DNA from: an uncultured Prevotellaceae bacterium
GTDB lineage: Bacteria > Bacteroidota > Bacteroidia > Bacteroidales > Bacteroidaceae
Assembly: GCA_902776665.1 (NCBI GenBank)
Contig: CACYQZ010000016.1
Location: 1-49,827 of the forward strand
Reading direction: 5' to 3'
Length of the DNA: 49,827 nt
Shown here: piece after piece, positions 1,896 to 38,573 of the stretch
Layout: the number at the start of each line of letters is the position of its first letter
Position numbering within the stretch: the stretch's first letter is position 1
The notes under the pieces: generated by a model
What the model was told of the DNA's origin: nothing
Databases searched by the model: none
The model's input: only the letters and a program-made list of their open reading frames with translations
Program-made: the position numbers and the translations under genes

Positions 1896-2597
1896 TCACA
1901 ATTGAAACACAATCGGAATCGCCATCATCGTCCGACACGGCTCATTGTTTTGAATACCGGGCTTCCACGGTGGCATCAACCGCATCACGCGCATCGCCTC
2001 GCGGTCGAGCAGCGGGTTAATAGAACGCGCAATTTTCAGGTCGCTGACGCTGCCGTCTTTATTGACGATGAACGACACCACCACCCTACCCTGAAGTTTC
2101 TGGTTCCGCGCTGCCTCGGGGTATTTCAGGTTTTTCGTCAGCCATTGCACAAACATCGTCATACCGCCCGGAAATTCAGGAATTTGCTCCACGATTCGCA
2201 CGTCGAGCGGTTTTTCTTTTTCCATCGTTTCCTGCTCAATCGGTTTCGGCTCTTCGGGCACAAAATCCTCAGCATCCACCGTCGCCTGCGAAATCAGTGG
2301 GTCTTCCGTCTTTTCGAGCGGTTCGGGCGGCGTTTCCACCACCTTGATTTGTTCCGCCACCGTCGGCTGCACCACCATTTCCGGCACTGGCAGCAGGTCT
2401 TTCTCGTCCTCCCACGGTTGAATCATCAGTTCCTCGGCCATTTCGTCGAGCAGTGCCTCGTCGATATCGTAGTCCGACTCCTCCGACGTCCATTGCAGTG
2501 CAACGAACAACGCAGAAAGAGCCACCACCAGTCCCAACACGAAACCCGTGGTGCGCTTCCTCTCCAGATTGGCCTGAGCCGACTTCTTTTGTTCCAT
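1896..2597 (-). CDS. tonB: Energy transducer TonB
   Basis: A 233-residue TonB-family protein that couples the proton motive force at the inner membrane to TonB-dependent outer-membrane receptors. I take the start at 2597 (MEQKKSAQ), not the longer frame, because it follows a -7 box and puts one transmembrane helix (FVLGLVVALSALFVALQW) at residues about 18-35. A proline/glutamate-rich periplasmic spacer follows. The C-terminal TonB domain includes PEFPGGMTMFVQWLTKNLKYP, GRVVVSFIVNKDGSV and the RLMPPWKPGIQ segment typical of Bacteroidetes. The window contains SusC-type and thiamine TonB receptors that such a protein could energise, but any pairing is inference. Confidence 0.93.
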   Translation of the reverse strand: MEQKKSAQANLERKRTTGFVLGLVVALSALFVALQWTSEESDYDIDEALLDEMAEELMIQPWEDEKDLLPVPEMVVQPTVAEQIKVVETPPEPLEKTEDPLISQATVDAEDFVPEEPKPIEQETMEKEKPLDVRIVEQIPEFPGGMTMFVQWLTKNLKYPEAARNQKLQGRVVVSFIVNKDGSVSDLKIARSINPLLDREAMRVMRLMPPWKPGIQNNEPCRTMMAIPIVFQL

Positions 2598-7644: not shown

Positions 7645-7710
7645 ACGATTATCTTTGAAACAAGCAAATTTTTTCTTTGTTTTTGATGAAAATGATGGGA
7701 AATTGCATTA

Positions 7711-7740
7711 AAAAGCCGATAAATTACTTTTATCGGCTTT
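7711..7740 (-). terminator. Terminator of cassette A
   Basis: AAAGCCGATAAA pairs with TTTATCGGCTTT around a short loop just after the nuclease stop, with T-runs on both strands. The same GATAAA/TTTATC stem ends cassette B (38581-38614). Confidence 0.85.
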
Positions 7741-7749
7741 ATAATAGGA

Positions 7750-8862
7750 TTATTTCGAACTTTTTCGTCGGTTGCAGTCGCGGCATAGCATTTGGCAATT
7801 CTCGGCCACGGTGCGACCACCCTCCACCCACGGCGTGATGTGGTCGGCCTCCATTTGCTCAATCTCGAAATGCTTGCCGCAGATGGCACAAATGCCTTTT
7901 TGTTTTTCATAGACCTCGCGCCGCGTGTTGTCATCGAAGGCGCGGATGCCGAGATGGCGGATGTCGTGGTCGAAAACGTAGTGGAAAATGCCCGTCTTCT
8001 TCTGCACGTCGCTGTCGGCCATCAGGCGCGAAACCTCTTGGGCGATGGCCGTTGCCGTGAGCGTCGTGTCGCGGTATTGGTTGTAAAGCAAGCCCCAATC
8101 CACCGCTTTCATCTCCTTTTTGTATTTGCGCCCGAAGAGTTTCTCCGTCCAGTGAATCACGTCTTGGAAATACTGCCAAAGCTGGTCGGCGTCGGTGTCG
8201 TGCTGATGCTCAGCCATATATTGCTCAATGGTCTTGCCCTGCGCATCGCCAATCCATTTCAGGGCTTTCTCGAAATAGTCCTGACGAATGGGCGAACCCG
8301 AAACGAAATCCGACCCGATTTTATACGCCACGCAGCCAGTTTTCGAGAAGCGGCGCTTGGCCTGTGTCACCCAACTGCCCGAATAAACAGCGTTGCGGAT
8401 TTCCTGTTCCGTGAGTTTTTCGCCGGCAATATTGATGATGTTGAACCATTTGAGTTGTTCCTCGTCGGTTCCTTCGCAGATATAGACTTGCAACGGATAG
8501 TCGAGGATGCGGTTTTGCTGCTCTTCGGTCATATTGCTGAAACCGAGCAGGTTGCCGTCGAAATTCATTAGGTATTCGCCAGCGATGAACGAGCAGATGG
8601 AGATGGTGCGTTGCTGTCCGTCGAGCAGTTCGTATTGGTCGTTGCCGACGCGCACCCAATACATCACATTGAGCGGAAATCCGTTCCATACGGTATCCAT
8701 CACGGCGTTGCGTTTCTTGACGTCATAGACGAACTCGCGCTGATATTTCGGGCGAATGTTCAGCCGTCCGCTGTAGCCCGTGATGCCTTCCTCTTGAATG
8801 CTGAGGTCTTCGTATTTCTCAGCCAATTCGCGAATTTTGATTTGGTGAAGTTCGATTTTCAT
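7750..8862 (-). CDS. DUF262 (GmrSD-N-like) / HNH nuclease, cassette A
   Basis: A 370-residue cytoplasmic protein with an N-terminal DUF262 domain and a C-terminal HNH nuclease. The DUF262 (ParB-like NTPase) signature is YQREFVYDVKKRNAVMDTV and DGQQRTISI at residues 81-89. The HNH module is at residues about 325-370: CAICGKHFE, EADHITPW, GGRTVAENCQMLC and CRDCNRRK, giving two zinc Cys pairs, the catalytic His and the Asn. DUF262 proteins such as GmrS, BrxU and SspE read modified DNA and control a fused nuclease, so I infer modification-dependent restriction. Start 8862 (MKIELHQI) is chosen over the longer frame because copy B begins the same way. The gene starts 16 nt after the MTase. Confidence 0.88.
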   Translation of the reverse strand: MKIELHQIKIRELAEKYEDLSIQEEGITGYSGRLNIRPKYQREFVYDVKKRNAVMDTVWNGFPLNVMYWVRVGNDQYELLDGQQRTISICSFIAGEYLMNFDGNLLGFSNMTEEQQNRILDYPLQVYICEGTDEEQLKWFNIINIAGEKLTEQEIRNAVYSGSWVTQAKRRFSKTGCVAYKIGSDFVSGSPIRQDYFEKALKWIGDAQGKTIEQYMAEHQHDTDADQLWQYFQDVIHWTEKLFGRKYKKEMKAVDWGLLYNQYRDTTLTATAIAQEVSRLMADSDVQKKTGIFHYVFDHDIRHLGIRAFDDNTRREVYEKQKGICAICGKHFEIEQMEADHITPWVEGGRTVAENCQMLCRDCNRRKSSK

Positions 8863-8878
8863 ATTGATTGTTTTAATA

Positions 8879-9985
8879 TTATTGTTTGCGACGGATAAAA
8901 ATTCGTTGATATACAACCCTTGCATTTCCATTTTTATCTAATAAATAAGGGTTTTGAATTCTCCAAGTTTTGTCTTGCTTCTTGAAATATTCGGCTTTTT
9001 CTTTCTTGGGTGGTGTATAAAAAGCACATTCGTTTTCTGCCCATTCAATATCACCGCCACGCCAAATTATCTCAAACTGATTTGGATTGTATTTGTCAAG
9101 GAATGTTACGGGAACGCCCATTATTCCATCATAATCACAAGGTATTTCTCTGTAAGAATCGACATTAATAGCATTATAGTTGTCATACTTCGGATATTCC
9201 TCTGGCGTATATTGTTTGTATAAGATTAATTCTTCATTATGTTTGCTTACGGGTAGATTTGTGAACCAGCAAGAGGTTGAAACACGAGCCATCTTTTTGC
9301 CGTTCTCCAAATGATGGTATTTTTCCCAATCATCTGGAACCTGAAAGTACATTCCTACATTGAAATTCGTATAACCAGTTCTAATTTTATCTTGTTGGAA
9401 TAATTTGAATACTTCACGGCATGCCAGAGCATTAGTATTACCTATTATTAAAAATTGTTTTTGGTGAATTGATAATTGTGCAACGTATTCCCTAAAAAGA
9501 GAGAACGGTGGATTTGTAACTACAATATCGGCTTCTTTTAGAAGTTCGACACATTCATGTGAGCGAAAATCGCCGTTTCCTTTTAACAACGACAGCACGT
9601 TTTTGTCGTTTTGAAGCAAGTATTGCACATCGGCCAAATTCACTGCACCGTCGCCGTTGTAATCTTTTACTTCCGTGATTTCGACTTTGTAAGCAACCTT
9701 TTTTGCCGTTTCCTCGGCAAAATCGAACTTCAACGATAATTCATCGCCCGAAATCGGCGAACCATCGTAACAGGTCGCAATCAACTTTTTCAGTCCAAAA
9801 ACATTGAAATTCAAGGCAAAATACTTGAAGAAATTGCTTTCGTAAGGGTCGTCGCAATTGCAGAAAACCACCTTATCTTTAAAATAAGGTTTGTAATACT
9901 TGAGTTCTTTGGTGATGTCGCCTAACTGAGTGTAAAACTCGTCTTTTTTTGCCCGCTTTGCATTTGTCAAATCAATTCTTGCCAT
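8879..9985 (-). CDS. EcoRI-family adenine-specific DNA methyltransferase, cassette A
   Basis: A 368-residue N6-adenine methyltransferase of the M.EcoRI family. KRAKKDEFYTQ at residues 10-20 and FCNCDDPYESNFF near 41-53 are family segments, and the catalytic motif IV is VVTNPPFSLFREY at 156-167. Residues 108-119 form DYNGDGAVNLAD, a perfect EF-hand/dockerin-type calcium-loop pattern inserted before motif IV. The DNA turns clearly AT-rich from the NPPF region to the 3' end, while the 5' third and the nuclease gene do not, suggesting a swapped specificity half. The gene follows a structured RNA (10023-10271) and precedes the DUF262-HNH nuclease. Modification site is unknown. Confidence 0.92.
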   Translation of the reverse strand: MARIDLTNAKRAKKDEFYTQLGDITKELKYYKPYFKDKVVFCNCDDPYESNFFKYFALNFNVFGLKKLIATCYDGSPISGDELSLKFDFAEETAKKVAYKVEITEVKDYNGDGAVNLADVQYLLQNDKNVLSLLKGNGDFRSHECVELLKEADIVVTNPPFSLFREYVAQLSIHQKQFLIIGNTNALACREVFKLFQQDKIRTGYTNFNVGMYFQVPDDWEKYHHLENGKKMARVSTSCWFTNLPVSKHNEELILYKQYTPEEYPKYDNYNAINVDSYREIPCDYDGIMGVPVTFLDKYNPNQFEIIWRGGDIEWAENECAFYTPPKKEKAEYFKKQDKTWRIQNPYLLDKNGNARVVYQRIFIRRKQ

Positions 9986-10022
9986 AAATTATAGTCTTTT
10001 TGCATAACTATAAGTCACAGCG

Positions 10023-10271
10023 AAAAAGAAGTGCGAGCTTCTCATCACTTACCAAGGTAGCCCTGCGAAGGAAACCTTTTCCACTCTAAGAAAACTCACA
10101 CTAAGCGTGTAAGCATCTTATTACGAGTGGAAAAGACAAACCTATACAGGTTGCCTTTACTGATTATTCCAGCGTTTTATATCCGTTAAACTTTCGCAGG
10201 GCTTTCGGTATAAGTGAAATAATAGTAATGCTTAATCCAACAAAAAATTTGCCCCCTCACAAAGAAAGGAC
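10023..10271 (-). ncRNA. Structured leader/non-coding RNA of cassette A
   Basis: Predicted 249-nt RNA running from G10271 to a T-run ending at 10023. The 5' end is GTCCTTTCTT + T + GTGAGGGGGCAAA, shared with copy B. Helices: P1 outer CACTTA..CC (10216-10207) with GGTAAGTG (10053-10046); P1 inner AGCCCTGCGAA (10203-10193) with TTCGCAGGGCT (10069-10059); P4 hairpin AACCT/AGGTT (10152-10139); P2 CTTTTCCACTC (10135-10125) with GAGTGGAAAAG (10086-10076); P3 CTTACAC/GTGTGAG (10113-10095); terminator hairpin AGAAG/CTTCT (10042-10027) then Ts. Copy B has the same fold with different bases. No ORF fits. It ends 37 nt before the MTase start, so it may be a separate RNA, an attenuated leader, or both. 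Confidence 0.82.
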
Positions 10272-10275
10272 AGTG

Positions 10276-10283
10276 CAAAGATA
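10276..10283 (-). promoter_or_regulatory. Promoter of cassette A RNA
   Basis: TATCTTTG on the minus strand, with a TTG 19 nt further upstream and a likely start at G10271. In copy B the spacing from the -7 box to the GTCC start is identical. Confidence 0.8.
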
Positions 10284-10333
10284 CAAACAAAGATTCGATT
10301 GACAAAAAAAAGCGCGGAAAAATTCAAATCGAG

Positions 10334-36120: not shown

Positions 36121-36128
36121 TATCTTTG
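36121..36128 (+). promoter_or_regulatory. Promoter of cassette B RNA
   Basis: TATCTTTG with a TTG 20 nt upstream. The predicted start is G36133, at the same distance as in copy A. Confidence 0.8.
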
Positions 36129-36132
36129 CATC

Positions 36133-36377
36133 GTCCTTTCTTCGTGAGGGGGCAAAACATATTGTTTAATTAGCATTGGCTATTATTCGCGTTCAAGAAA
36201 AAAGTCTGGAAAACTAATTTCTTGCAGAATTAGAATAGCAAATGTTCACGGAAGAAACGGAACTTCCCTTCCTCATCATATAGCACTGATGTAAGTCAGT
36301 GTGAGTGTATCTATGATGAGGAGCGGGTTTTTTCCAGACTTCCCGTGAACGCGAGTGGATATACTCACTTTCTTTTT
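36133..36377 (+). ncRNA. Structured leader/non-coding RNA of cassette B
   Basis: Predicted 245-nt RNA. The 5' end is GTCCTTTCTT + C + GTGAGGGGGCAAA, then GCATT..CTATTATT, both shared with copy A. P1 outer CGCGTTCA (36188-36195) pairs with TGAACGCG (36346-36353); P1 inner AAGTCTGGAAAA (36202-36213) with TTTTCCAGACTT (36330-36341). P4 is GGAAG/CTTCC (36250-36267); P2 CCTCATCATA (36271-36280) with TATGATGAGG (36312-36321); P3 GCACTGA/TCAGTGT (36283-36302). An extra hairpin CTAATT/AATTAG is at 36214-36233. A weak GAGT/ACTC hairpin and T-run end it at about 36377, 45 nt before the MTase. Helices match copy A in order and spacing but not in sequence. Confidence 0.82.
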
Positions 36378-36422
36378 CTGCCAAAAGTGATTGATGGCGA
36401 TGCACAAAACGCTATCAATCGT

Positions 36423-37475
36423 ATGGCTAAAAAAAGTTTCAGAGATGCGAAAACCGCAAAAAAAGACGAGTTTTACACTCAACTTGTCGATATAGAAAAC
36501 GAACTGCGGCATTACAAAGAACATTTCAAAGACAAAACGGTGCTTTGCAATTGCGACGACCCACGTGTGAGCAACTTTTTCCATTATTTTAGTTACAATT
36601 TTGAGCAATTGGGTCTGAAAAAACTTATCACGACTTGCTACAAAAATCAAAACCGAGACTTGTTCAGCAAAAACGATTCAGAACGCGCCATCTGGTTGGA
36701 ATATTTCGGTGACCGCAACGGCAACCGAGTACCCGACCCCGAAGAAATCGGCATCCATTATTTTAAAGGTGACGGAGATTTCCGTTCATCAGAATGTATT
36801 GAACTGCTCAAAGAGGCCGATATTGTAGTAACAAATCCACCGTTTTCGTTGTTTCGAGAGTATGTTGCCCAATTGATTCAATATAATAAAAAATTTGTGA
36901 TAGTAGGACATCAAAATGCTATCAAATATAAAGAGATATTTCCTCTGATAAAAGAAAATAGAATTTGGTTAGGCTATGGTTTTAAAGGCGGTGCGGCTCA
37001 TTTCTTTAGCAAATATGACGATACGGCAACTGCTGGCGACCATCGCGAAGGAATGATTCGTGTTTCTGGTGTTAATTGGTTTACTAATCTTGAAATCCAA
37101 AAACGTCACGAAGAATTAATTTTGTATAAAACTTATAATTCTGAAGATTATCCAAAATATGACACTTATGACGCTATCAATGTAGATAAAACATCAGAGA
37201 TTCCAATAAATTATGATGGCGTTATGGGTGTTCCCATCACTTTTTTAGATAAATACAATCCAGACCAATTCGAGATTGTTGGAGAGTTTAATAATGGTAG
37301 TGACTCTGAATTAGATTTGGCAAAACCGATTATAAACGGAGAACAGAAATACTCTAGAATAGCCATCCGTCGTCGTCAAACTGAATCATCAAAAGTCGTT
37401 CCATACAAACCTATTAATTCTTCGATTTCGATGGCGGCAGAAACATTAGGGACATCAGAACAATCAAAAGAATAG
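36423..37475 (+). CDS. EcoRI-family adenine-specific DNA methyltransferase, cassette B
   Basis: A 350-residue paralogue of the cassette A enzyme: DAKTAKKDEFYTQ at residues 8-20, LCNCDDPRVSNFF, and motif IV VVTNPPFSLFREY at 136-147. Residues 97-108 (DRNGNRVPDPEE) again fit an EF-hand loop, in the same place but with a different sequence. The start at 36423 (MAKKSFRD) is chosen because it aligns with copy A and lies after the RNA terminator; the longer frame would run through the RNA. The 3' half is markedly AT-rich from NPPF onward. The C-terminal tail (TESSKVVPYKPIN...) is absent in copy A. The nuclease starts 6 nt later. Confidence 0.92.
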   Translation: MAKKSFRDAKTAKKDEFYTQLVDIENELRHYKEHFKDKTVLCNCDDPRVSNFFHYFSYNFEQLGLKKLITTCYKNQNRDLFSKNDSERAIWLEYFGDRNGNRVPDPEEIGIHYFKGDGDFRSSECIELLKEADIVVTNPPFSLFREYVAQLIQYNKKFVIVGHQNAIKYKEIFPLIKENRIWLGYGFKGGAAHFFSKYDDTATAGDHREGMIRVSGVNWFTNLEIQKRHEELILYKTYNSEDYPKYDTYDAINVDKTSEIPINYDGVMGVPITFLDKYNPDQFEIVGEFNNGSDSELDLAKPIINGEQKYSRIAIRRRQTESSKVVPYKPINSSISMAAETLGTSEQSKE

Positions 37476-37481
37476 AAAAAT

Positions 37482-38573
37482 ATGAAAATCGAACTGCACA
37501 AAATCACCGTCCGCAACCTTACGCAAGGCTATTCGGACAACAATGAAAATGGAGTACGCGCCTACGGAGGCCGCCTCGATGTGCGACCACCCTATCAGCG
37601 CGAATTTGTCTATAAAGAAAAACAGCGCGATGCCGTCATCGACACGCTTACACAGGGTTTCCCGCTCAATGTGATGTATTGGGCTGTACGAGACAACGAC
37701 ACATTCGAAATCATCGACGGACAGCAGCGCACTATCAGCATTTGCCAATATGTGACTGGTGATTTCGCTTTCAATTTCCGCTATTTCCACAACCTTCAAC
37801 CCGACGAACAGGAAAAAATCCTCGACTATGAGTTGCAGGTTTACATTTGCAGTGGCACCGACAGCGAAAAACTCAAATGGTTCAAGACCATCAACATCGC
37901 AGGCGAAGAACTGACCGAGCAGGAATTACGCAACGCCGTGTATGCAGGCAATTGGACGAGCGACGCAAAACGCTATTTCAGCAAGAACGGTGCGCCAGCA
38001 GCCAAAATTGGCAGCGACTATCTCACTGGCTCGGCTATTCGTCAAGACTACCTCGAAACAGCCATTTCTTGGATTTCCGACGGTAATATAGAGGTGTATA
38101 TGTCGAACCATCAACACGACGCAAGTGCGGCGCCGCTGTGGCAATTCTTTCAGGCTGTGATTACGTGGATTGAGACATCGTTCCGACCGACCAAAGAACG
38201 CAAGAAAATTATGAAAGGCGTGGAATGGGGAATGTTATACAAACAATTCAAAGATGAAGTTTTTGACCATCAAAAAATTGACGAGGAGGTGAAACGCCTC
38301 ATTCTCGATGACGATGTGACAAAAAAGACGGGCATCTATCCATACGTTTTGACTCGGAAAGAAAAATTCTTGTCTATTAGAACTTTCACCGATGCACAAA
38401 AACTGGCCGCTTACGAGCGGCAAGGCGGCATCTGCAGTGACTGCAAACAGCATTTTGAACTGTCGCAAATGGAAGCCGACCACATCACGCCGTGGGTCGA
38501 GGGCGGTCGGACGGTCGCCGAAAATTGCCAAATGCTTTGTCGGGAATGCAATCGGCGTAAGAGTTCGAAATAA
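37482..38573 (+). CDS. DUF262 (GmrSD-N-like) / HNH nuclease, cassette B
   Basis: A 363-residue paralogue of the cassette A nuclease. DUF262 motifs: YQREFVYKEKQRDAVIDTL and DGQQRTISI at residues 79-87. The HNH module at about 318-363 has CSDCKQHFE, EADHITPWVEGGRTVAENC and CRECNRRKSSK. From the QMEADH segment to the C-terminus the two proteins differ by one residue (Asp/Glu), whereas the middle parts are diverged, so the nuclease end is under strong constraint and the central part may carry specificity. The protein starts MKIELHKI, like copy A. A terminator of the same design follows. Confidence 0.88.
   Translation: MKIELHKITVRNLTQGYSDNNENGVRAYGGRLDVRPPYQREFVYKEKQRDAVIDTLTQGFPLNVMYWAVRDNDTFEIIDGQQRTISICQYVTGDFAFNFRYFHNLQPDEQEKILDYELQVYICSGTDSEKLKWFKTINIAGEELTEQELRNAVYAGNWTSDAKRYFSKNGAPAAKIGSDYLTGSAIRQDYLETAISWISDGNIEVYMSNHQHDASAAPLWQFFQAVITWIETSFRPTKERKKIMKGVEWGMLYKQFKDEVFDHQKIDEEVKRLILDDDVTKKTGIYPYVLTRKEKFLSIRTFTDAQKLAAYERQGGICSDCKQHFELSQMEADHITPWVEGGRTVAENCQMLCRECNRRKSSK

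Follow-up and report, generated by a model that had tools for sequence, protein, structure and literature searches.

A structured leader RNA in front of a Bacteroidales restriction-modification operon: a probable attenuator, apparently shared among many defense genes

What might a structured RNA be doing between the promoter and the first gene of a bacterial DNA-modification operon? The question is raised by a 49,827-nucleotide (nt) stretch of DNA from an uncultured Prevotellaceae bacterium (contig CACYQZ010000016.1 of assembly GCA_902776665.1), which as a whole is called here the ‘window’. On its minus strand the window carries what will be described as cassette A, that is, in order, a promoter-like TATCTTTG box, a leader of approximately 280 nt, a gene for an N6-adenine methyltransferase (MTase) of family PF13651, a gene for a DUF262-HNH protein, and a hairpin with a T-run. 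A sequence-only reading of this DNA had arrived at the same layout and coordinates, which are borne out, and had viewed RNA, MTase, and nuclease as parts of one not yet described defense system, with the RNA serving as regulator, guide, or sensor. The comparisons presented here lead to a different perspective, as it is the RNA and not the gene pair that is the unusual part of the cassette. The leader, that is, probably is a cis-acting attenuator which also gates translation of a restriction-modification (R-M) operon, and it would belong to a family of RNAs serving many Bacteroidales defense genes.

As judged from sequence comparison, the leader is a real structured RNA, conserved and strongly backed by covariation. 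The region 9980-10275 folds at -99.8 kcal/mol, with a z of -6.4 vs 200 dinucleotide shuffles, and the leader of a second cassette in the window, cassette B, has a fold z of -8.7 vs 100 shuffles. Main-type leaders were aligned by sequence only (alignment A3; 32 leaders, i.e., 31 dereplicated loci plus the window), and upon that alignment a 53-pair structure has 92.3% of 1664 cells paired, vs 35.6-40.5% with partners slid. Double changes are seen at 19 pairs vs 9.1 in column shuffles (0/500), and the covariation score is 0.182 vs 0.099 shuffled (also 0/500). Helix by helix, these double changes involve 7/8 pairs of P1, 4/8 of P3, 5/9 of the apical hairpin P4, and 2/4 of PK3, a pseudoknot that flanks the P3 3' strand. 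The start-codon hairpin, P6, is 96% paired with double changes in 1/10 pairs, the short helix P2 is 79% paired with 0/4, and PK1, which joins the 5' element r1 to r2, has 0/10, displaying only one-sided changes to G.U. At the paired columns of the named helices and of a further helix, r3:r4, G.U combinations outnumber A.C by 86 to 30, and it therefore is as an RNA of the coding strand that the element should be understood.

A covariance model, R1, was built from A3, with models in general built on PF13651 loci alone; their E-values are rough, as due to a short calibration. R1 matches the leader of cassette A at 141.7 bits (9983-10237), the window itself being one row of the model alignment, and that of cassette B at 85.1 bits (36167-36425). 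None of 4227 Rfam families matches in the window at its gathering threshold, and the leader compared with Rfam in E-value mode gives nothing near threshold. When MAFFT and RNAalifold were applied to 81 upstream regions together, almost no consensus emerged, as these regions comprised several sub-types. At locus L209 a match to Acido-Lenti-1 (RF01687) above the gathering score lies at 2161-2205 (plus strand), outside of the leader.

The position of the RNA is consistent as well. The Bacteroidetes -7 box has a consensus which we take to be TAnnTTTG, and this is fit by TATCTTTG of cassette A. Such a box lies no more than 120 nt upstream of 146/162 RNA copies, vs 16/162 after one letter shuffle, and at a median of 30 nt from the model start. 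(The 162 copies are 169 match rows minus three cut by a contig end and four short reverse-strand P6 matches.) Because a promoter box precedes the copies, the RNA most likely is the leader of a transcript. An open reading frame (ORF) is found just after the RNA in 155/162 copies, and in 111 of those 155 the first ORF begins at the last three positions of the R1 model, which includes the ATG. A covarying structure, read on the coding strand and lying between promoter and start codon, is what would be expected of a cis-regulatory leader.

The genes that follow are easier to place. The MTase of cassette A matches the PADLOC-DB 2023 type II MTase model MTase_II PDLC03297 (E 1e-110), and the DUF262-HNH protein matches the type II restriction endonuclease (REase) model REase_II PDLC03418 (E 5e-136), covering residues 1-370 of a 372-position model that is the best full-length PADLOC model for this protein. 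As PADLOC files both proteins under type II, the one with modification and the other with restriction enzymes, the cassette genes are, by family assignment, a type II-like R-M operon of the ordinary kind: a DNA MTase gene of an R-M family (PF13651, PADLOC) with an adjacent REase gene, the latter by family match only, i.e., the DUF262-HNH protein is predicted to be a REase. The idea that the pair represents an undescribed system is not upheld by these matches. That the two genes form a stable pair is, in contrast, confirmed: a same-strand DUF262-HNH gene is found in 142/156 PF13651 loci with a usable gene, and among the remaining 14 are truncated contigs as well as loci having some other upstream partner. 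These 156 loci, from Bacteroidales, Clostridia, Lentisphaeria, and other records, are a non-random set, with 80/156 being among the best relatives listed for the query, a few of which were removed as duplicates. PF13651 is present in 38/294 genomes of an order sample, 13/247 of a phylum sample, and 8/245 of a Clostridia-centred sample, counts which include the own or centre genome.

Among known DUF262 defense proteins, GmrSD, BrxU, and SspE act on modified DNA. The window's protein resembles these in combining DUF262/GmrSD_N with an HNH domain but differs in being paired with an MTase and in having a type II REase as its best full-length PADLOC model. Modification-dependent, type IV DUF262 systems have no MTase of their own, whereas here the MTase gene lies within the operon. 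Searches of the Protein Data Bank (PDB) yielded nothing for the MTase and, for the nuclease, no more than an HNH fragment and a weak match to a maturase; DGQQR and HNH/zinc motifs of the nuclease are intact as judged by eye. As the sequence-only reading also had it, an EcoRI-like endonuclease was not noticed by eye among ORFs around cassette A, with no profile search aimed at it, and no helix-turn-helix (HTH) ORF, as C-protein-controlled R-M systems have, turned up in a hidden Markov model (HMM) search of the 700 nt preceding either cassette, A or B.

Some PF13651 loci depart from this pattern. Five MTases (L135, L136, L138, L139, and L148) have no DUF262 partner that was found and no R1 match, and in four of them, by eye, a common upstream protein gene ends just before the MTase. 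At G598:C62 (L105/L162) and G601:C47 (L166) the C-terminal approximately 70 positions of the PF13651 profile are repeated in tandem after the gene, copies which possibly are exchangeable target-recognition modules.

Is the RNA then a component of this pair? A check of whether it always is found upstream of PF13651 genes gave a negative answer. Among the 156 loci, 93 have a type-1 or type-2 RNA of this family, 8 an HTH-like gene, 13 some other structured upstream region, and 42 none of these, such that at 63 no RNA of this kind was detected; 32 loci with both MTase and DUF262 genes have neither detected RNA nor HTH gene. The 13 ‘other structured’ regions, of which those of the Clostridia loci L061 and L105 are examples, were labelled by eye and by a crossing-helix score, with 12 shuffles per locus, and are not counted as family members. 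Of the HTH-like genes, three are divergent and five stand in line, immediately upstream of the MTase; the in-line ORFs, of 67-76 amino acids (aa), all at loci with PF13651 and DUF262, thus occupy the RNA's usual place. They were found using an HMM of our own, from five seeds judged XRE-like by eye and with no Pfam check, which identified an HTH-like ORF in 8/158 upstream regions, none of these eight with an R1 match or r1 motif. On an MTase tree (FastTree only), RNA vs no RNA requires 14 changes and the type-2 RNAs (23 rows) require 15. The RNA types, that is, are interleaved on the tree, yet more clustered than are shuffled labels. Such interleaving would be expected of an exchangeable control element, an argument limited by the few HTH loci and by shared ancestry.

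Conversely, in a genus sample of 239 genomes, a PF13651 gene follows directly upon 62/144 RNA copies and not upon the other 82/144, with 62/119 PF13651 places carrying R1 RNA (rows without an N-terminus excluded). Given 63/156 loci without the RNA and 82/144 copies elsewhere, the RNA as a dedicated component of the R-M pair, as the sequence-only reading had proposed, was rejected. Certain loci, i.e., L061, L105, L102, and L096 (Clostridia, Lentisphaeria, and Saccharibacteria-labelled), have unrelated upstream sequence in a similar layout: a long hairpin whose apex is complementary to a later segment, followed in L061 and L105 by a T-run hairpin before the MTase. Perhaps these regions are an analogous or very distant RNA.

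Where else is the RNA found? R1 detects it in 18/294 genomes of the order sample and 97/239 of the genus sample (own genome included), and in 0/246 other genomes of the phylum sample. The first genes after the 155 copies, as classed from Pfam and PADLOC matches of cluster representatives, are PF13651-like in 69 cases, and the other 86 fall into 45 clusters. R-M or defense genes account for 24 of these 86, among them the Tsp45I REase, MmeI and Eco57I/TaqI-type IIG enzymes, an N6_Mtase protein with HSDR_N, N6/N4 and D12 MTases, DndC (1e-141), GmrSD, a ResIII-HNH protein, PDC-S11, and PLD and SNF2 helicases, one of these being DrmD (5e-203). The RNA reaches 50 bits or more at 18 of the 24; weaker matches are those before GmrSD (26 bits), DrmD (29 and 39 bits), and three IIG enzymes (42-44 bits), with two of the weak places, G008:C16 and G007:C56, backed by a second model, R3. 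Many of the remaining first genes are exported or envelope genes (BspA-type leucine-rich repeat (LRR), BACON, CsgG, acyltransferase 3 (Acyl_transf_3), sulfatase/EptA, MBOAT, GT2), and surface-protein genes follow a lower-scoring branch of the RNA.

Strictly filtered R1 genome scans miss type-2 RNAs, and R3 therefore was built, trained solely on 22 type-2 PF13651 leaders (alignment A4; 22/23 type-2 RNAs). It found 65 copies in 27/60 genomes; a further alignment, A5, holds 37/41 chosen cores. For 46 of the 65 copies a first ORF within 160 nt was taken, of which 6 are PF13651, 33 are other R-M or defense-type genes, and 7 are others. The 33 consist of 18 R-M enzymes (type I HsdM, type II and III MTases, IIG, Tsp45I; one below cut-off), SspB, 12 SNF2 helicases, mostly with a PLD domain and corresponding to PADLOC ‘HKD+Snf2’ where scanned, and 2 ResIII-only proteins. 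Class assignments here are in part indirect: L385, L392, L396, L399, L400, and L402 were classed via 68-93% identity to a scanned protein and L366 by 45% identity to the DrmD match L348, L363 is below its family cut-off, L364 and L390 carry a ResIII match alone, and L377 was not scanned. The seven others are PAP2, DUF4419, a C10 peptidase with LRRs, two lipocalin-like lipoproteins, and two unassigned. The R3 figures are raw counts, set here against the general picture that a genome devotes only a small share of its genes to defense. Type-2 leaders would appear to provide the strongest link to defense.

Within the window's own genome there are six leader matches, one of them weak. R1 finds those of cassettes A and B and of contig C6, and R3 those of C19, C22, and C29. 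The C6 leader (G000:C6:55932-56206; L207) is followed by a small membrane-type ORF and, after it, one resembling GIY-YIG, names given in both cases from sequence alone; C19 has a third MTase copy with RNA; the C22 leader (G000:C22:18234-18492; L383) precedes a PLD-SNF2 helicase; and the C29 leader (G000:C29:6876-7123; L384), at 41 bits, precedes the C10 peptidase with LRRs. As relatives precede many unrelated defense genes, the RNA looks like a modular, shared switch rather than a component of one enzyme system. It plausibly is a new, defense-linked family of cis-regulatory RNA. With regard to individual leaders, those of L219, L247, L261, and L266 (209-239 bits) stand directly before related large proteins, that of L266 (770 aa) having no Pfam or PADLOC match, and, judged by the leader, these may be an undescribed defense family. 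Leaders of L253 and L269 (226 and 200 bits) are followed 26-28 nt on by lipoprotein-like ORFs, with no defense gene, and perhaps are remnants after R-M gene loss.

How would such a leader operate? Numbering the relevant segments r1 to r6 from the 5' end (Table 1), two of them appear from the alignments to be used twice. Segment r3, the 3' arm of P4, covaries both within P4 and with r4, which lies right after P1, and the resulting r3:r4 helix has 91% of its cells paired and 6/10 pairs double-changed in A3. What follows r4 is a U-run, with 178/256 letters T (70%) vs a 28% background in A3. The r3:r4 helix is kept as well in 73 copies not associated with PF13651 (alignment A6; 73/93 such copies), where T accounts for 68% of the 8 letters that come next, vs 29%. 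Attenuators are characterized by a terminator-like stem, with its U-run, of which one strand can enter an alternative helix instead, and r3, by being present in both P4 and r3:r4, is such a strand. The column-based count of r3:r4 took the place of a fixed-window duplex test which did not discriminate (passing in 19/69, 7/17, and 22/61), and which was uninformative because other helices fall inside the windows.

Segment r1, in turn, can pair with r2 or instead with r5, the 5' arm of the start-codon hairpin. The r1:r5 pairing beats at least 49/50 shuffles in 90/92 PF13651 loci, at a mean of -19.8 kcal/mol, and at least 39/40 shuffles in 69/69 PF13651-like and 14/17 other copies of at least 150 bits. 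Compensated r1:r5 variants are seen both between and within types, e.g., GCAC.../...GTGC in L275. RNAalifold applied to the type-2 alignment alone yields r1:r5 (14 pairs), r2:r3 (16 pairs), and a local hairpin before the U-run.

The sharing of r3 by P4 and r4, the sharing of r1 by r2 and r5, and these type-2 pairings together suggest a switch. With the switch OFF, r1 would pair with r2, the r3:r4 helix would form just before the U-run such that RNA polymerase stops, and r5:r6 would close the start codon. With the switch ON, r2 would pair with r3, so that the terminator could not form, and r1 would pair with r5, opening the start-codon hairpin and thereby allowing MTase and nuclease to be made. 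Termination, the coupling of pairings into two states, and which of these states is ON are what we infer. Both trp-type attenuators and riboswitch expression platforms consist of a chain of mutually exclusive helices of which one is terminator-like; the window's leader differs from these in adding the r1:r5 arm to the start codon, in showing no excess of leader peptides, and in belonging to no Rfam family. Upstream ORFs beginning with ATG and of at least 8 aa occur, that is, in 67/72 leaders vs 68-71/72 shuffles, a comparison of how often such ORFs occur. There being no excess of short ORFs, a peptide-sensing, trp-type attenuator is not indicated, and a leader peptide was rejected as a candidate.

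A number of observations nevertheless weigh against this switch. RNAalifold on A3 misses P3, r3:r4, and r1:r5, though P1, PK3, P6, and the core of P4 are recovered. The r3:r4 helix crosses P1 and P3, and therefore either is a pseudoknot or requires that P1 and P3 open. In the window's own cassette A, r1:r5 is weaker than the above-noted mean, at -13.6 kcal/mol. Among non-PF13651 copies of 60-149 bits, which precede envelope (surface) genes, some R-M genes, and unassigned ones, r1:r5 passes in just 16/62, and in the R3 set it passes in 19/36 non-PF13651 copies tested, within-locus pairing in that set being on average 3.7 kcal/mol better than pairing across loci. No common input is evident for defense and surface genes, and there are as well the 63/156 PF13651 loci in which an RNA of this kind was not detected.

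The same layout might be viewed instead as resembling that of a type III toxin-antitoxin (TA) system. Terminated RNA would then be an inhibitor in trans, binding nuclease or MTase, with the terminator setting the ratio of RNA to mRNA. The order of promoter, structured RNA, terminator-like stem, and gene indeed is that of the AbiF RNA, RCd22, as presented in PMC12373285, and in Clostridia loci L061 and L105 T-run hairpins lie, by eye, between the analogous RNA and the MTase start. The present RNA family, however, precedes unlike proteins (type I, II, III, and IIG enzymes, Tsp45I, DndC, SspB, helicases, lipoproteins) rather than a single partner family, a spread not readily explained by an RNA that binds one particular protein; Tandem Repeats Finder reports 0 arrays in 9980-10290, so no tandem repeat array is seen; and r5 and r6 adjoin the start codon, as would be expected of a cis element. 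A TA-like role thus is considered quite unlikely. A role in target recognition, with the RNA serving the nuclease or the MTase as guide or as structural component, is suggested by the combination of a large pseudoknotted fold with an HNH domain, but is judged highly improbable. The IscB/OMEGA type of RNA-guided nuclease combines RuvC with HNH, whereas here similarity to Cas9d and IscB models (E 3e-8 and 5e-7, respectively, for cassette A; far below cut-offs) is confined to the HNH stretch. The same RNA, furthermore, precedes enzymes with a target-recognition domain of their own (MmeI_TRD in L346 and L393), self-sufficient REases (Tsp45I in L198 and L388), and surface proteins, its variable parts covary internally, and neither it nor an HTH gene was detected at the 32 MTase-DUF262 loci mentioned above. 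Of the three roles that had been offered, regulator is the best supported, with guide and sensor having no support from the sequence.

A metabolite riboswitch, e.g., for S-adenosylmethionine or S-adenosylhomocysteine (SAM/SAH), would be compatible with attenuation, as r1 to r6 would be its expression platform, which the alternative helices resemble, and a metabolite would specify the input. The conserved core (P1, P3, pseudoknots) is compact and the enzyme downstream uses SAM, yet no Rfam riboswitch matches at a useful score, helix sequences vary widely, and related leaders precede genes without an evident metabolic link (BspA-like LRR, BACON, Acyl_transf_3); we therefore view a riboswitch as rather improbable, and an already known riboswitch was rejected. 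Least credible is an element acting as DNA, that is, with its inverted repeats serving as a protein-binding or recombination site. The inverted repeats are long and their spread is multi-copy, but G.U exceeds A.C on the coding strand as described above, copies have diverged, the element usually ends at the start codon with a promoter box ahead, and no copy was found in plasmid and phage collections (one blastn query each) or viral contigs (one exact pattern), searches that divergent copies could escape. Both a DNA hairpin and a mobile element were rejected as candidates.

An attenuating leader would differ from described means of controlling R-M genes. HTH C-proteins control type II R-M systems, and the EcoRI and Eco29kI R-M operons are under antisense RNA from reverse promoters, as set out in PMC3874152. 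With the former the window shares a dedicated control element upstream of R-M genes, one which an HTH-like ORF indeed replaces at five PF13651-DUF262 loci, but the window's element is a cis RNA, and one common to unrelated R-M types. With the latter it shares control of a type II R-M operon at the RNA level, though by a structured leader of the sense strand rather than by antisense transcripts. Within open-access PMC literature (titles and starts of abstracts) nothing resembling a sense-strand leader common to R-M genes came to light, and, by that literature and Rfam, the leader is undescribed.

Coordinates are collected in Table 1. Cassette B is found on the opposite strand (36121-38573), approximately 26 kb from cassette A, with 52% identity to A in the MTase and 60% in the nuclease. 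Its MTase probably starts at 36423, as the start given by the ORF lister, 36345, falls within the RNA. The nuclease of cassette A starts with the ATG at 8862, the ORF lister's 8931 being an upstream extension, and the hairpin after the operon was not among terminator-scan entries. Right behind the promoter in both cassettes is a near-identical 5' hairpin, CCTTTCTTyGTGAGGGGGCAAA (10269-10248, minus; 36135-36156, plus), for which a looser pattern has a match near the equivalent position in few of 111 loci.

Table 1. Positions within the window of the two cassettes and of the elements of the cassette A leader
Feature	Position	Strand	Basis or remark
Cassette A promoter-like -7 box TATCTTTG, Bacteroidetes type	10276..10283	-	Sequence; matching box also near related RNAs; presumed consensus
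Cassette A structured leader RNA	9986..10269	-	Fold and R1 match; 5' end placed from the box
Element r1 (GCATTACTATTATTTCAC), pairs with r2 or r5	10214..10231	-	A3 alignment, covariation, r1:r5 shuffle test
P1 5' strand, partner 10046-10051	10211..10216	-	7/8 pairs double-changed
P3 5' strand, partner 10060-10069	10193..10202	-	4/8 pairs double-changed
Element r2a (GGAATAAT), r1 partner in PK1	10163..10170	-	A3 alignment, covariation
Element r2b (GATGCTTACAC), P4 5' arm; its ATGC could pair with r1 GCAT (by eye)	10107..10117	-	
Element r3, P4 3' arm, also r4 partner	10087..10102	-	A3 covariation
Element r4 and U-run, terminator-like if paired with r3	10023..10042	-	91% of cells paired; U-run count
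Element r5 (GTGACTTATAGTTATGC), complement of r1; P6 5' arm, in the hairpin at the start codon	10002..10018	-	
Element r6, P6 3' arm, abuts ATG at 9985	9986..9995	-	Fold, A3 covariation
Cassette A PF13651 adenine methyltransferase	8879..9985	-	368 aa; EcoRI_methylase E 1.2e-133
Cassette A DUF262 (GmrSD_N)-HNH nuclease	7750..8862	-	370 aa; GmrSD_N E 1.4e-16, HNH E 3.6e-15
Hairpin and T-run after cassette A operon	7710..7740	-	Read in sequence
Cassette B promoter-like box TATCTTTG	36121..36128	+	Sequence
Cassette B leader RNA (r1 36173-36190, r5 36387-36403)	36135..36422	+	Fold z, R1 match
Cassette B PF13651 methyltransferase	36423..37475	+	Start set by RNA match and homology
Cassette B DUF262-HNH nuclease	37482..38573	+	60% identical to cassette A nuclease

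R-M systems endanger their host when mistimed or when present in a wrong ratio, and HTH C-proteins and antisense promoters are among the known solutions. If the present interpretation is correct, then a structured leader recruited by unrelated R-M and other defense genes would be a new mode of control, several defense systems per cell would be regulated via one RNA fold, and the covariance model would be a searchable marker of Bacteroidales defense genes, including ones not annotated as such, e.g., the L219/L247/L261/L266 family. More speculatively, and we consider this doubtful, there may exist a defense-wide RNA switch, by which R-M, DndC/SspB phosphorothioation, PLD-SNF2, and surface proteins of Bacteroidales would all be subject to one shared post-transcriptional signal, which may be phage attack or instead a stochastic on/off state. 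As r1 and r5 are nearly interchangeable within type-1 and within type-2 leaders, terminated leader fragments could act in trans upon the start regions of other loci and so link these loci into a network. How an incoming R-M system is kept safe, and when a chromosomal one is turned up, are long-standing questions that would become directly testable.

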